DNA from: Methylobacterium segetis
GTDB lineage: Bacteria; Pseudomonadota; Alphaproteobacteria; Rhizobiales; Beijerinckiaceae
Length of the DNA: 64,000 nucleotides
Assembly (NCBI RefSeq): GCF_004348265.1
Contig: NZ_SMNT01000008.1
Location: forward strand, 1 to 64,000
Direction: 5' to 3'
Of this stretch, positions 42,823-49,755 are shown one piece after another (position 1 is the first letter of the stretch; each line of letters begins with the position of its first letter). The position numbers and the translations under genes were made by a program. Below the pieces are notes generated by a model. It was not told the origin of the DNA, ran no database searches, and saw nothing but the letters and a program-made list of their open reading frames with translations.

Positions 42823-44214
42823 TCACTCGGCCTTCTGGTCGGTGGCCGGCTTCTCGTCGGCCTCGGGCTCACCGTCCTCGTCGGAGAACAGCGCCTCTTT
42901 CGAGACGGGCTCCTCGACCAGTTTGACCTGCGCGAGGACGTGGTCAACCACCTTCTCCTCGAACAGCGGCGCCCGGAGCTCGGCGAGCGCCTGCGCGTTC
43001 TTGCGGTAGAAGTCCCAGACCTGCTGCTCCTGGCCCGGGAACTGCCGGACCCGGGCGATGAGGGCCTGGTTCACCTCCTCGTCGGAGACCTTGATATCGG
43101 CGCTCTCGCCGACCTGCGCAAGCACCAGCCCGAGGCGAACGCGGCGCTCGGCGATCTTGCGGTACTCGGCCTGCGCCTTCTCCTCCGTGGTGTCCTCGTC
43201 CGCGAAGGTCTTGCCGCGGGTCTTCAGGTCCTGCTCGACCTGCGCCCAGACGGAAGCGAACTCCTGGTGGACGAGGCTCGGGGGCAGGTCGAAGGCGTAC
43301 TTGCCGTCCAGCGCGTCGAGGAGCTCCTTCTTGAGCTTGCGGCGCGAGGCCGCCTCGTAGTCGCCGCCGATCGCGGTGGAGACGGCCTCGCGCAGCTTCT
43401 CCAGCGATTCGAGGCCGAGGCCCTTGGCGAACTCGTCGTCGACCTTGGCCTCGCCGGGCGCCTGGATCTTCTGCACCGTCACGTCGAACTCGGCATCCTT
43501 GCCGGCGAGCTGCTCGGCGCCGTAGGCCTCCGGGAAGGTCGTCTTGACGAGGCGGCTCTCGCCGACCTTGGCGCCGACGAGCTGGTCCTCGAAGCCCGGG
43601 ATGAAGCTGCCCGAGCCGAGCTCGAGGTCGATGCCTTCGCCCTTGCCGCCCTCGAACTCGGTGCCGTCGATGCGGCCCACGAAGTCGATGGTGACGCGGT
43701 CGCCGTTCTGGGCCTCGGCGCCCTCCTCCTTCTCGGCGAAGGGCCGGTTCTGGCCGGCCATGCGCTGCAGGGCCTCGTCGATCTCGGCATCCGAGGGCTT
43801 GGCCACGAGCTTCTTGAGGCTCACATCCGAGAGGTCGGCGAGCTCGAAGCTCGGCAGCACCTCGACCGCGACCTTGAAGGCGAGGTCGGCCTTGGCGTCG
43901 AGGGCCTTGTCGACCACCGCCTTGTCCTCGGGGAACTCGACGCGGGGCTCGAGCGCGAGCTTCAGGCCGTTATCCGCGACGATCTTCTGGTTGGCCTCGT
44001 TGACGGCGTTCTGCAGCACGTCGGCCATCACGGAGCGGCCGTAGACCTTGCGCAGGTGCGCCACCGGCACCTTGCCGGGCCGGAAGCCCTTGAGCTGCAC
44101 CTTGTCCTTGAGGCCGGAGAGCTCGTTCGTCAGGCGATCCTCGAGCTCCTGGGCGGCGAGGAGCACCTGAAACTCGCGCTTCAGCCCCTCGGAGTGTGTC
44201 TCGGTCACCTGCAT
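42823..44214 (-). CDS. tig: Trigger factor (463 aa)
   Basis: Ribosome-associated chaperone with peptidyl-prolyl isomerase activity. The ribosome-binding loop GFRPGKVP is present as [20 protein letters not shown] (residues about 43-62). The FKBP-type domain follows ([20 protein letters not shown]), and then the long helical C-terminal arms. The acidic C-terminal tail ([19 protein letters not shown]) is common in the group. ATG 44214 matches the family start [15 protein letters not shown]. Confidence 0.97.
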
Positions 44215-44408: not shown

Positions 44409-44493
44409 TGGTGCGGGCGGAGGGGCTCGAACCCCCACGTCTTGCGACACTGGAACCTAAATCCAGCGCGTCTACCAGTTCCGCCACGCCCGC
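44409..44493 (-). tRNA. tRNA-Leu (anticodon TAG)
   Basis: Class II tRNA on the minus strand. The acceptor GCGGGCG pairs with CGCCCGC. The anticodon stem CTGGA/TCCAG encloses loop TTTAGGT with anticodon TAG. A long variable arm (TGTCGCAAGACG) is present, the T-arm is GGTTCGAGCC, and CCA is encoded. It reads the CUA codon and is not an amber suppressor. Confidence 0.96.
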
Positions 44494-44703: not shown

Positions 44704-46176
44704 ATGCCGCAAGACGATTTCGCGCCCGAAGCCGCCCCCGCCTCGGCCGCCGATTCGCCCGGCCGCCCCTCGCGCCGCTCCCTCCTCGGCGGCGCCGCCC
44801 TCCTCGGCCTGATGCCCGGGGCCGCGGCGGCGCAGGGCTCGAAGCCCGATTCCGCGCCTGCCGGCCCGCAGCCCGAAGCGCGGCCGCTGCCGGCGGAGGC
44901 GGCGAAGGTCCGCCTGCGCCCGGAGCCCGCGCCCGAGACGCAGGTCTGGTGCCTCGACGGCAAGGGCGTGCCGCCGGCGCTGCGGGTGAAGCTCGGCGAG
45001 ACGGTCCGGCTCAAGGTCGAGAACCGGACCGAGCGCCCGCTCTCGCTGCACTGGCACGGCGTGCGCAACCAGAACCCGATGGACGGCGTCGGCGGCGTGA
45101 CGCAGCCGCCGATCCAGCCGGGGGCGAGCTTCACCTACGTCTTCACGCCGCCCGATGCCGGCACCTTCCTGATCCGCCCCCTCGTCGTCGGCGGCTCGAG
45201 CGAGCCGTCCGGCCGCGGGATCGCGGGCTTCCTCGTCGTCGAGGAGAAGGCCCCGCCCGCCGTCGAGCGCGACCTCCCGCTCCTGATGCAGGACTGGCGC
45301 CTGCAGGACGATGCGAGCCTCCTGCCCTTCGGCCAGACCCTGTTCGCGGCCTCGAACGGGCGGCTCGGCAACATGATCGCGATCAACGGCCGACCGGTCC
45401 CGGAGGTGATCGCTGCGCGCCCCGGATCGCGCCTGCGCCTGCGCCTCGGCAATGCCTGCAACGCCCGGGCGACCCGCATCCGCTTCGACGGGGTGAAGGT
45501 CTACGTCGCGGCCGTGGACGGGCAGCCGACCGACACGTTCGAGCCCCTGCGCGCCACCCTCCCCGTCCCGCCCGGCACCCGCTACGACCTCCTCCTCGAC
45601 ATGCCCGGGGAAGCAGGGGCCAAGGGCAGCGTCACGGCCCTCGTCGGCGGCGGCCTCGTCCTCGCGAACCTCGTCGCGGAGGGAGAGCCGGTCACCGACA
45701 AGCGCCCGCCCATCGCGCCGATCGGCGACAACAAGCTCCTGCCCGCCGAGGTCAAGCTGCAGAACGCGGTGCGCCGCGACATCACGATCACGGGGGGCGC
45801 CACCCTCGACAAGGAGAAGCCGGACGCCGAGCCCGTCTTCAAGGGCGACCCGGCCCGGATCTGGGCCGTCAACGGCGCCAACGGCATGGCCGGCGTCGCG
45901 CCGCTCTTCTCGGTCAAGCGCGGCCAGGTGGTTGTGCTGGCGATCAAGAACGACACGGCCTTCCCGCAGGCGCTGCACCTGCACGGCCACGCCTTCCGCC
46001 TGCTCCACCCCCTCGACGACGGCTGGGAGCCCTACTGGCTCGACACGTTCCAGCTCCTCGAGGGCCGCACCGCCCGCATCGCCTTCCTCGCCGACAACCC
46101 GGGCCGCTGGCTGCTCAGCTCGACGGTCCTGGAGCGCTTCGACACCGGGCTCTGGACCTCGTTCGAGGTCACCTGA
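44704..46176 (+). CDS. Multicopper-oxidase-fold protein with incomplete copper sites (490 aa)
   Basis: Exported three-cupredoxin-domain protein with a twin-arginine-like signal (PSRRSLLGGAALLGLMPG). Motif I is intact (H116-W-H118 in LSLHWHGVR) and so is motif III (H425, H427 and H429 in LHLHGHAF). Motif II, usually WYHSH, reads FLIRPL (Arg158, Leu160). Motif IV, usually HCHxxxH, reads W469-LLSSTVLER, so the type-1 Cys and the type-3 His residues are gone. It is therefore unlikely to be a working laccase; a SufI-like or copper-binding role is possible. It is convergent with nnrDE. Confidence 0.85.
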   Translation: MPQDDFAPEAAPASAADSPGRPSRRSLLGGAALLGLMPGAAAAQGSKPDSAPAGPQPEARPLPAEAAKVRLRPEPAPETQVWCLDGKGVPPALRVKLGETVRLKVENRTERPLSLHWHGVRNQNPMDGVGGVTQPPIQPGASFTYVFTPPDAGTFLIRPLVVGGSSEPSGRGIAGFLVVEEKAPPAVERDLPLLMQDWRLQDDASLLPFGQTLFAASNGRLGNMIAINGRPVPEVIAARPGSRLRLRLGNACNARATRIRFDGVKVYVAAVDGQPTDTFEPLRATLPVPPGTRYDLLLDMPGEAGAKGSVTALVGGGLVLANLVAEGEPVTDKRPPIAPIGDNKLLPAEVKLQNAVRRDITITGGATLDKEKPDAEPVFKGDPARIWAVNGANGMAGVAPLFSVKRGQVVVLAIKNDTAFPQALHLHGHAFRLLHPLDDGWEPYWLDTFQLLEGRTARIAFLADNPGRWLLSSTVLERFDTGLWTSFEVT

Positions 46177-47683
46177 GCCGGGCTTCCAAAGCCCCGAGCA
46201 CCCGCGGCATCCCTTCGGGCAGGTCCTCCGCGATCAGGCCCGGGCCGTGGCGGCACCCGGCATCCCCGTGGATCCAGACTCCGGCCGACGCGGCCTCGAA
46301 GGGCGGCATGCCCTGCGCCAGGAGGCCGGCGATCAGCCCGGCGAGCACGTCGCCCGAGCCCGCCGTGCCGAGATGCGGCGTGCCGTGGTCGTTGATGGCG
46401 GCGCGCCCGTCGGGATCCGCGATCACCGTGTCGGCGCCCTTGAGCACGACGACGGCGCCCGAGAGGGCCGCCGCCCGTCGGGCGCGCTCCACCTTGCCGA
46501 GCCCCTCCTCCACCGCGTGCGTGCCGCCGAAGAGCCGTGCGAACTCGCCGGCATGGGGCGTCAGGACGGCCGTCGCGCCGCCCTCGGCGAGGTGGCGGGC
46601 CAGCGCCGCCGCCTCGCCCTTGAAGCTCGTCAGCGCGTCGGCATCGAGGACGAGGGCGCGGCCGGCCGAGGCGGCCACCGCGACGAGGTCGCGGGTGGGC
46701 TGGCCCATGCCGAGGCCGGGTCCGGCGAGCACCACGTTGAGGCGCTCGTCCACGAGGAGGTCGTCGAGATCGTCCGCGCTCTCGCAGGCGCGCAGCATGA
46801 TCGCGGTGAGGTGGGCCGCGTTCTCGGCAAGCGCCGACGCGGGCGAGGCCAGGGTGACGAGGCCGGCCCCGACTCGCAGCGCCCCGCGCGCGGCGAGGCG
46901 CGCCGCCCCCGTGCGATAGGCCGGCCCCGACAGGACGAGGGCGTGACCCCGCGTGTACTTGTGGCTCTCCGCTTCGTGGCGCGGGAAGGCCGCGCCCCAG
47001 AGGTCCGGCCCGTTGGCGTGGAGAGGCGGCTCGCAGGCCGCGAACCCCTCGGCCAGGGCCGCCGCGCCCGTCCCGATCTCGGCGACGTGGAGCACCCCGC
47101 AATGGGCACGGCCCGGCAGGAGCAGGTGCCCGGGCTTCAGGGCGACGAAGGTGACGGTCTCGCGAGCGCGGATCGCGGCGCCGCGCACCGCGCCTGTATT
47201 CCCGTCGATGCCGCTCGGCACGTCCACCGCGAGCACCGGCCGGCCCGCCGCGTTCACGCGCTCCACGAGGCCACGGGCCTCGCCGTCGAGATCGCGCGAG
47301 AGCCCGGCGCCGAAGAGCGCGTCGATCACGAGACCGAACCGGGCGAGATCGTCCCCGCCGATGCCTTCGGTCAGGTCTCCCCGCCATTCGGCGGCCGCGA
47401 GCGCCGCGTCGCCCGAGAGCGCGGCGCGCTGCCCGAGCAGGCGGATCTCGACCGGGTGTCCCGCCTCCGCGAGGATGCGTGCCGCGACGAAGCCGTCGCC
47501 GCCGTTGTTGCCCGGCCCGCAGAGCACGAGGACCGAGCCGCCCTCCGGCAGGAGGGAGCGGGCGCGCTCCGCCACTGCGGCGCCGGCCGCGCGCATCAGC
47601 GCGATGCCGGGCGTGCCCGCAGCGATCGCCGCGGCATCGACCCGCCGCATCGCCTCAACCGTGAGCAGCCGTCCCCGTCCCAT
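46169..47683 (-). CDS. nnr: Bifunctional NAD(P)H-hydrate epimerase / ADP-dependent NAD(P)H-hydrate dehydratase (504 aa)
   Basis: Metabolite-repair enzyme that converts hydrated NAD(P)H back to NAD(P)H. The N-terminal epimerase domain (about 1-215) starts LLTVEAMRRVDAAAIAAG and has VLCGPGNNGGDGFVAARILA. The C-terminal dehydratase domain (about 230-500) has TRGHALVLSGPAYRTGAARL, LTPHAGEFARLFGG and the nucleotide site GTAGSGDVLAGLIAGLLAQG. Length is standard for the fused form. It overlaps the end of the convergent copper-fold gene by 8 bases. Confidence 0.95.
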   Translation of the reverse strand: MGRGRLLTVEAMRRVDAAAIAAGTPGIALMRAAGAAVAERARSLLPEGGSVLVLCGPGNNGGDGFVAARILAEAGHPVEIRLLGQRAALSGDAALAAAEWRGDLTEGIGGDDLARFGLVIDALFGAGLSRDLDGEARGLVERVNAAGRPVLAVDVPSGIDGNTGAVRGAAIRARETVTFVALKPGHLLLPGRAHCGVLHVAEIGTGAAALAEGFAACEPPLHANGPDLWGAAFPRHEAESHKYTRGHALVLSGPAYRTGAARLAARGALRVGAGLVTLASPASALAENAAHLTAIMLRACESADDLDDLLVDERLNVVLAGPGLGMGQPTRDLVAVAASAGRALVLDADALTSFKGEAAALARHLAEGGATAVLTPHAGEFARLFGGTHAVEEGLGKVERARRAAALSGAVVVLKGADTVIADPDGRAAINDHGTPHLGTAGSGDVLAGLIAGLLAQGMPPFEAASAGVWIHGDAGCRHGPGLIAEDLPEGMPRVLGALEARLR

Positions 47684-47734: not shown

Positions 47735-48223
<489 letters not shown>

Positions 48224-48342: not shown

Positions 48343-49755
48343 ATGGCAAAGACAGCGACCGAAGTCCTGAAGGAGATCAAGGACAACGACGTCAAGTACG
48401 TCGATTTCCGCTTCACCGACCCGCGCGGCAAGTGGCAGCACGTCACCTTCGACGTCTCCCTCGTCGACGAGGAGATCTTCTCCGAGGGCACGATGTTCGA
48501 CGGCTCCTCGATCGCCGGCTGGAAGGCGATCAACGAGTCCGACATGCTGCTGATGCCCGATCCCGCCACCGCCTGCATGGACCCGTTCTTCTCGGCCTCG
48601 ACCATGTCGATCGTCTGCGACGTGCTCGAGCCCTCGACGGGCGCTCCCTAGTCCCGCGACCCGCGCGGCACGGCCAAGCTCGCCGAGGCGTTCCTGAAGT
48701 CGTCCGGCATCGGCGACACGATCTATGTCGGTCCGGAAGCCGAGTTCTTCGTGTTCGACGACGTGAAGTTCGCCGCCGACCCCTACCAGACCGGCTTCAA
48801 GCTCGACTCGACGGAACTGCCGATCAACGGCTTCACCGAGTACGAGGGCGGCAATCTCGGCCACCGCGTGCAGATGAAGGGCGGCTACTTCCCCGTGCCG
48901 CCGCAGGATTCGGCGCAGGACATGCGCGGCGAGATGCTGGCCGCCATGCAGTCGATGGGCGTCAAGGTCGAGAAGCACCACCACGAGGTGGCGAGCGCCC
49001 AGCACGAGCTCGGCATGAAGTTCGATACGCTGACGCTGCTCGCCGACCACATGCAGATCTACAAGTACTGCATCCACAACGTGGCGCAGAGCTACGGCAA
49101 GACCGCGACCTTCATGCCGAAGCCCGTCTACGGCGACAACGGCTCGGGCATGCACGTGCACCAGTCGATCTGGAAGAACGGCAAGCCGCTCTTCGCGGGC
49201 GACAAATACGCCGATCTCTCCCAGGAATGCCTCTGGTACATCGGCGGCATCATCAAGCACGCCAAGGCGCTCAACGCCTTCACCAACCCGTCCACGAACT
49301 CCTACAAGCGCCTCGTGCCGGGCTACGAGGCGCCCGTGCTGCTGGCCTACTCGGCCCGCAACCGCTCCGCCTCCTGCCGCATCCCGTGGACGACCTCGCC
49401 GAAGGCCAAGCGCGTCGAGGTCCGCTTCCCCGACCCGATGGCGAACCCCTACCTCGCCTTCGCGGCCCTGCTGATGGCCGGCCTCGACGGCATCATCAAC
49501 AAGATCGATCCGGGCCCGGCCATGGACAAGGATCTCTACGACCTGCCCCCGCGCGAGTTGAAGAAGATCCCGACCGTCTGCGGCTCGCTGCGTGAGGCCC
49601 TGCAGAACCTCGACAAGGACCGCGCCTTCCTCAAGGCCGGCAACGTCTTCACGGACGATCAGATCGACTCCTTCATCGAGCTGAAGATGACCGAGGTGCT
49701 GCGCTACGAGATGACCCCGCACCCGATCGAGTTCGTGCAGTACTACTCGCTCTGA
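48343..49755 (+). pseudogene. glnA: Type I glutamine synthetase with an in-frame amber codon at codon 103
   Basis: Full-length GlnA (470 residues) is encoded in one frame except for TAG at 48649-48651. Homologues have Tyr here (EPSTGAPY-SRDPRG context), so a single C-to-G change in TAC would explain it. The rest is intact: [65 protein letters not shown], and the adenylylation-site Tyr region near the C-terminus (DKDLYDLPP). There is no frameshift. It may be a sequencing error, a recent null mutation or a read-through site. A gene this central would normally be expected to be functional. Confidence 0.9.

Follow-up and report, generated by a model that had tools for sequence, protein, structure and literature searches.

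One gene of the window, by which we mean the whole stretch of 64,000 nucleotides of the Methylobacterium segetis genome analyzed here (contig NZ_SMNT01000008.1), encodes a multicopper-oxidase (MCO) homologue that has retained the fold of its superfamily and only 4 of 12 copper ligands. The protein belongs to a clade, found next to a tRNA-Leu gene in several families of the Hyphomicrobiales, in which no member has a complete ligand set and which represents a distinct version, at order level, of the already known 'pseudo-MCO' idea. The members of this clade are probably ancient pseudo-oxidases in which a new hairpin is the working part and metal binding at the leftover His residues is optional. 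The features on which this reading is based are listed in Table 1.

Table 1. Positions of the MCO homologue, its motifs and its neighbors in the window
Feature	Position	Strand	Basis
Ligand-stripped MCO homologue, CDS, 490 aa, open	44704..46176	+	ORF, Pfam, AlphaFold2 model
Twin-arginine pair R24-R25 of Tat-type signal peptide SRRSLLGGAALLGLMPGAAAAQ	44773..44778	+	alignment; Tat export predicted
Motif I LHWHG, H116 and H118 both kept	45046..45060	+	alignment
Motif II, LIRPL for WYHPH; R158 and L160 at two type-3 His positions	45169..45183	+	alignment
Motif III QALHLHGH; Q422 for type-1 His, H425 and H427 kept	45967..45990	+	alignment
Clade-specific hairpin R432-LLHPLDDGWEPYW-445	45997..46038	+	alignment, pattern search
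Motif IV SSTVLERFDTGL for HCHxxxHxxxxM; position of T474 non-His in all clade members	46117..46152	+	alignment
tRNA-Leu(UAG), conserved upstream neighbor and locus anchor	44409..44493	-	
tig (trigger factor; presumed), conserved upstream neighbor	42823..44214	-	
nnr (bifunctional NAD(P)H-hydrate epimerase/dehydratase), convergent; overlaps CDS end by 8 bp	46169..47683	-	
glnB (P-II; presumed), conserved downstream neighbor	47885..48223	+	

The three cupredoxin domains of the MCO superfamily are recognized both by Pfam, with Cu-oxidase_3 (1e-32), Cu-oxidase_2 (6e-22) and Cu-oxidase (4e-8) all over their cut-offs, and by superposition of an AlphaFold2 model (mean pLDDT 80.3, pTM 0.81, from a 42-row alignment). 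Residues 54-490 of the model superpose on MCO structures, with Z 44.4 over 404 residues for 6vow and Z 43.4 for Lac15 (4f7k), which bears out the view of a preliminary description of this DNA that the fold outside the lost motifs is well preserved. These two canonical proteins, 6vow being from Pseudomonas thermotolerans, are the best matches in sequence (E 3e-55 for 4f7k and 7e-55 for 6vow among solved structures) as well as in structure, yet they carry motif II as WYHPH (6vow) or WYHS (Lac15) and motif IV as HCHVIDH or HCHMLGH, and neither has the hairpin. E. coli CueO likewise shares the fold and a Tat-type signal but has all of its ligands. The window protein scores far below the cut-offs of the models for CueO (NF008205, 110 of 525 bits) and CopA (TIGR01480, 93 of 479 bits).

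CueO-type MCOs hold their copper through 12 ligand positions, which we located in our own alignments; CueO itself appears there as canonical (12/12). At these positions the window protein reads HHRLQHHSSTRL against the canonical HHHHHHHHCHHM. None of the four type-1 ligands is kept (Q422, S473, R478 and L483), both type-2 ligands are (H116 and H425), and at the type-3 positions H118 and H427 remain while R158, L160, S472 and T474 replace His. The preliminary description held that motifs I and III keep their His residues, which is right for motif I but only in part for motif III, where Q422 has taken the place of the type-1 His; this loss had escaped it, as had the invariance of the hairpin and the existence of a purified, published orthologue. 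Motif II has lost its type-3 His pair as described, but the replacing residues had been read one position out of register, as FLIRP rather than LIRPL (L156-L160). The loss of the type-1 Cys with motif IV is confirmed by the alignment, which places S473 at the Cys and S472 and T474 at the flanking His positions.

To place these losses among relatives, 227 proteins were reduced to 190 by the removal of 37 that were identical over the last 380 residues. The 152 non-identical clade members comprise 88 sequences from Methylobacterium/Methylorubrum (genus-level below) and 64 others from Microvirga, Enterovirga, coded genera of the same family and the families coded f20, f36, f50 and f52. Twelve of the 190 are in neither the clade set nor the canonical set, namely a partial protein (L002), L216, L269 and nine further canonical MCOs, one of which (L156) has N at one type-3 position.

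None of the 152 sequences keeps all of the ligands, a complete type-1 His/Cys/His triad or all eight His of the trinuclear site (4/8 in the window protein). The preliminary description had proposed that an alignment of close homologues would distinguish a clade-wide loss from recent decay in this genome, the latter being indicated by close homologues with every ligand; no such homologue is among the 152, and the loss is clade-wide and old. Within the genus it is nearly uniform, with H116, R158, L160, Q422, H425, H427 and R478 in 88/88 sequences, H118 in 87/88 and T474 in 86/88. Position 473 is Ala in 63 and Ser in 25, and the type-1 Cys, the type-1 His residues and the motif II His pair occur in none of the 88. 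Chance is not an issue, because the gene was found in all 37 same-genus genomes searched and the same losses recur in all 88 sequences. Among the 64 other members, ligands survive in patches (type-1 Cys in 9, first His of motif II in 12). The number of ligands kept per sequence across the 152 is 1 in 2 sequences, 2 in 3, 3 in 14, 4 in 109, 5 in 14, 6 in 9 and 7 in 1. This last sequence, L211 (G544, family code f20), is the least stripped member and keeps the type-1 His at 422 and the type-1 Cys. Of the leftover His residues, H116, H425 and H427 are kept in 144, 142 and 144 of the 152, and the full set of four is present in 87/88 genus-level sequences versus 33/64 other members. Within the genus, 171 of the 431 aligned columns are conserved as strongly as these four. 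The twin-arginine pair is aligned in 87/88 and 62/64 of the two groups.

We refer to this group as the tRNA-Leu-anchored Hyphomicrobiales pseudo-MCO clade, and the window protein has all three of its defining characters, which are monophyly, the tRNA-Leu(UAG) locus and the RxL[HD]xxDDGWxP hairpin. In trees of proteins trimmed to their last 520-540 residues, the 76 clade rows of a 106-row tree group together with SH-aLRT 95, 40 clade rows separate from 22 canonical ones with support of 100, and the clade is recovered with bootstrap/SH-aLRT 100/99 in a set of 33 rows to which E. coli CueO was added. The clade is distinct from canonical MCOs and from E. coli FtsP (SufI), which groups with CueO and the canonical L269 outside the other 103 rows on a long branch whose exact place is unsure.

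The chromosomal position is nearly fixed. tRNA-Leu(UAG) lies upstream of the gene in 87/87 genus-level loci tested and in the window itself, and in at least 54 of the 64 other members (48/58 loci tested and 6/6 from a survey of tig loci). Where the flanks are long enough, the gene and its tRNA stand between lon-clpX-clpP-tig and nnr-glnB-glnA. A downstream nnr or glnB is present in 61/87 genus-level loci and 34/58 others, many of the stretches ending before that point, and 7/64 other members have none of the conserved neighbors within the stretch examined. In the order, 124 tig loci were found, and the survey covered 58 of them. This MCO gene follows tRNA-Leu in 6/58, whereas tRNA-Leu and nnr have no MCO between them in 26/58, and the remaining stretches are without nnr, without the tRNA or short. 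Thus, only some families have the gene at the tRNA-Leu locus. The neighbors are housekeeping genes and gave no lead to function. In the window, the names tig and glnB for the flanking genes are our assumption, as is glnA (glutamine synthetase) for the gene beside glnB (48343-49755), which has an in-frame stop at codon 103 (48649-48651) beyond which the frame continues, either a sequencing error or a real lesion.

If ligands are assumed to have been lost and never regained, the 106-row tree gives an indication of the order of events. The His at position 474, the second of the HCH motif and a type-3 ligand, is absent from all 152 sequences and from all 76 clade rows of the tree, and it is the only ligand missing from every clade row. 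A single loss accounts for it, compared with 4 losses at H116, 18 at H118, 11 at 158, 5 at 160, 8 at the type-1 position 422, 6 at H425, 7 at H427, 10 at 472, 11 at the type-1 Cys, 6 at 478 and 14 at 483. Since the His at 474 alone is lost in every member, the trinuclear site was probably hit first. On the same loss-only reading, a type-1 site may have persisted in the clade ancestor, because scattered members keep the type-1 Cys (9/152) or one type-1 His, and that site may have been eroded several times in parallel. We considered and dropped the idea that the type-1 loss predates the split of the lineages, as His 474 is the one ligand whose loss every member shares.

The hairpin directly after motif III behaves in the opposite manner to the ligands. 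It has approximately the form RxLHxLDDGWEPYW, or more broadly RxL[HD]xxDDGWxP[YF][WF], in the clade, with R432, L434, D438 and D439 in 152/152 sequences, W441 and P443 in 151 and G440 in 150. The residue of the window protein is found much less often in the 26 canonical MCOs (R432 and L434 in 12 each, D438 in 3, D439 and W441 in none, P443 in 6 and G440 in 2). L216 had been removed manually from the clade set ahead of this count, and L290-L293 were obtained later; with these five included the hairpin count would be 152/157. L270, which keeps 1/12 ligands, still reads RPLDGLDDGVKPW at the hairpin, and both hairpin and locus are kept in members that have lost two of the four leftover His residues (L135 and L158) or three (L177 and L270). 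As judged from these alignments, the hairpin outlives the metal ligands. F279 is another residue that is variable in canonical MCOs and invariant in the 64 other clade members. A strict DNA pattern for the hairpin, which misses divergent members of the order, matched in 3/337 genomes sampled from the class and 8/249 sampled from the phylum; every one of these genomes belongs to the window's own family. The reversed control pattern gave one match.

The gene is under purifying selection that resembles that on tig and is not neutral. Among Methylobacterium loci the median pairwise NG86 dN/dS is 0.325 (5233 pairs, which are non-independent, with no account taken of GC bias), compared with 0.343 for tig, 0.253 for nnr, 0.086 for clpP and 0.045 for clpX. 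In 1995 of the 2684 pairs that it shares with nnr, the gene shows the weaker constraint of the two. A dN/dS of 0.3 is not low, and this counts against the reading that we favor. One Methylobacterium copy, L023 (G007), has a stop or a change of frame in the signal-peptide region and an intact mature part.

What might such a protein do? Our preferred account is that a Tat-type periplasmic MCO lodged beside tRNA-Leu(UAG) in a Hyphomicrobiales ancestor and then lost its oxidase chemistry, probably by breakage of the trinuclear site at position 474, after which the type-1 site and further trinuclear ligands would have eroded in parallel. Type-1-driven oxidase catalysis would then be absent, and the protein may bind an envelope partner via the hairpin face of domain 3, perhaps, by analogy with FtsP, as an empty-core scaffold. 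Passages of PMC2661564 report that FtsP (PDB 2uxv/2uxt) keeps 2/12 ligands, has no metal in its structure and is favored to act as a scaffold. FtsP would serve here as a model for the way of working, and not as the family in which to file this protein. In Methylobacterium, the four leftover His residues probably form a vestigial type-2-like pocket for about one metal ion, in keeping with the partial copper binding that the preliminary description had suggested and that the presence of all four in nearly every genus-level sequence makes possible. Metal is unlikely to be the common function of the family, since the hairpin is intact in the other lineages and about half of them have an incomplete pocket.

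The strongest challenge to a pseudo-oxidase comes from Melac13220 (WP_147019975.1), a protein of about 50 kDa, like the window protein, that was cloned from M. extorquens DSM 13060 and published as a "non-blue laccase" (PMC9456135, main text); it is also mentioned in PMC11355796. The 18 coding bases of the sense primer match exactly in L031, L091 and L125, and in L091 the match is the start of an orthologous 479-residue ORF, at the end of which the antisense primer matches with 3 mismatches (2 in L031; no exact match to this primer among the loci examined). On the evidence of these primers, Melac13220 is probably an orthologue of the window protein. According to the main text of PMC9456135, the protein is colorless, with no 610 nm band and no 330 nm shoulder, and EPR-silent; it carries 0.71 Cu and 2.33 Fe per molecule and binds about two Fe2+ by ITC (K 3.2e7 per M, N 1.81). 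The same text gives a kcat on ABTS of 14.6 per s, rising 5-fold to 74.5 with Fe2+, at a pH optimum of 1.5, and also reports oxidation of 2,6-DMP. The absent type-1 and type-3 signals would be accounted for by the missing Cys and His ligands, and a one-ion His pocket would fit both the 0.7 Cu and the lack of bands at 610 and 330 nm, although EPR silence alone is no evidence for a Cu(II) type-2 site. PMC9456135 treats the protein as a laccase, whereas we read it as a probable pseudo-oxidase. Its main text leaves the missing ligands undiscussed, using none of the words histidine, cysteine, motif, alignment, homology or identity.

Taken at face value, the activity of Melac13220 makes it an enzyme and is the main evidence against a pseudo-enzyme. 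The proposal in the preliminary description of a pseudo-enzyme kept for another role agrees with the purifying selection, and this activity as published in the main text of PMC9456135 argues against it. Weak points of the activity may be the acid assay, the stimulation by iron, the one-column preparation and the CueO of the host.

An alternative possibility, which we consider unlikely, is that the protein handles metal in the periplasm, buffering or delivering Cu or Fe via the His pocket without catalysis. The persistence of H116, H425 and H427 across the clade would be expected on this view, as would the Cu, Fe and Fe2+ binding reported in the main text of PMC9456135, although the copper was given at 1 mM (as CuSO4) during expression in E. 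coli BL21. The four members that have lost two or three of the His residues while keeping locus and hairpin argue against it, and the neighbors, lon-clpXP-tig, the tRNA and nnr-glnB, are not metal genes.

We are more doubtful that the protein is an unorthodox but real oxidase, that is, an MCO lacking the type-1 (T1) site in which Cu or Fe held by the four His residues, as a mononuclear or a di-iron center, oxidizes small substrates, as PMC9456135 implies. Their presence in 87/88 genus-level sequences is what would be expected of a selected metal site, but the set is incomplete in 31/64 other members, and a complete T1 site for electron entry is found in none of the 152. Iron can oxidize ABTS in acid, which also counts against this reading. 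The turnover of ABTS and 2,6-DMP, the Fe2+ stimulation and the ITC in the main text of PMC9456135 favor it; the assay was carried out at pH 1.5 and 50 C in glycine-HCl, which is not physiological, and the protein was prepared from E. coli in a single cation-exchange step with the host's CueO as a possible contaminant. A further variant, which we regard as rather improbable, is a periplasmic oxidase or metal sensor, perhaps using iron, that has given up type-1 copper and half of the trinuclear site; in it the mononuclear tetra-His pocket (H116/H118/H425/H427) is the working part and the DDGWEPYW hairpin is a substitute for electron entry or a dock for a partner.

It is very unlikely that the protein is an orthologue of FtsP acting in cell division. 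The E. coli cell-division protein FtsP is, like the window protein, a Tat substrate of three cupredoxin domains that has lost copper ligands, its structure (2uxv) superposes on the AlphaFold2 model with Z 36.8 over 387 residues, and the FtsP model NF008135 matches with E 3e-14. That match reaches 52 bits against a cut-off of 581, however, and none of 16 genomes exceeds the cut-off. FtsP also keeps a different ligand pair (the first His of motif II and the type-2 His of motif III), has no DDGWEPYW hairpin and lost its ligands on another branch of the tree. The preliminary description had suggested a SufI-like scaffold; descent from SufI/FtsP is contradicted by the tree, the score and the ligands. 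In G042, another member of the order, two FtsP-like matches come closer, at 301 and 296 bits. Recent decay of a pseudogene in progress, or an assembly artifact, could be suspected in a draft of 256 contigs with an in-frame stop in the presumed glnA 2.5 kb away, but it is refuted by the relatives (gene in 37/37 genomes, same losses in 88/88 sequences, dN/dS about 0.33) and can safely be set aside.

If ancient pseudo-oxidases are what these proteins are, the clade would be, besides the FtsP lineage, a second case of a copper oxidase turned into something else, here conserved across several families of one order. The alignments provide a map of the ligand lost in all members, the ligands eroding in patches and the newly invariant residues. 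Melac13220 should be without type-1 and type-3 copper residues, in which case its spectra are explained by sequence and the catalytic claim needs re-testing, and the names 'laccase' or 'multicopper oxidase' would mislead for such genes. In the open-licence PMC literature, PMC9456135 was the one paper on this protein to which our searches led, and we found none that describes the clade as lacking copper ligands.

Three other MCOs or groups of MCOs bear on the history of the locus or the genome. A canonical MCO stands at the tRNA-Leu position in 1/25 cases tested, many flanks being short. This protein, L155/L278 (G567, family code f32), has 12/12 ligands and lies beside tig and tRNA-Leu(UAG). 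We rejected it as the ancestral form at this position, because its place in the tree is among other canonical MCOs and joining it to the clade costs 27 log units; with a p-AU of 0.041 the rejection is borderline. Insertion at the tRNA may have happened more than once, or the gene may be a remnant of the ancestral state. A second ligand-poor group, family code f23 (L216 and L290-L293), reads, for example, HFAMQHHHSLRL and HYSVQHHQSTRL at the 12 positions, lies away from the tRNA-Leu locus as far as the stretches examined show, and is without the hairpin; it is possibly sister to the clade, with support of 74/90 only. Finally, the window's own genome has a further, partial MCO (L002, G000:C29:28401-28985) with the motifs HWHG, MYHPH, HPIHVHG and HCHKSHH.
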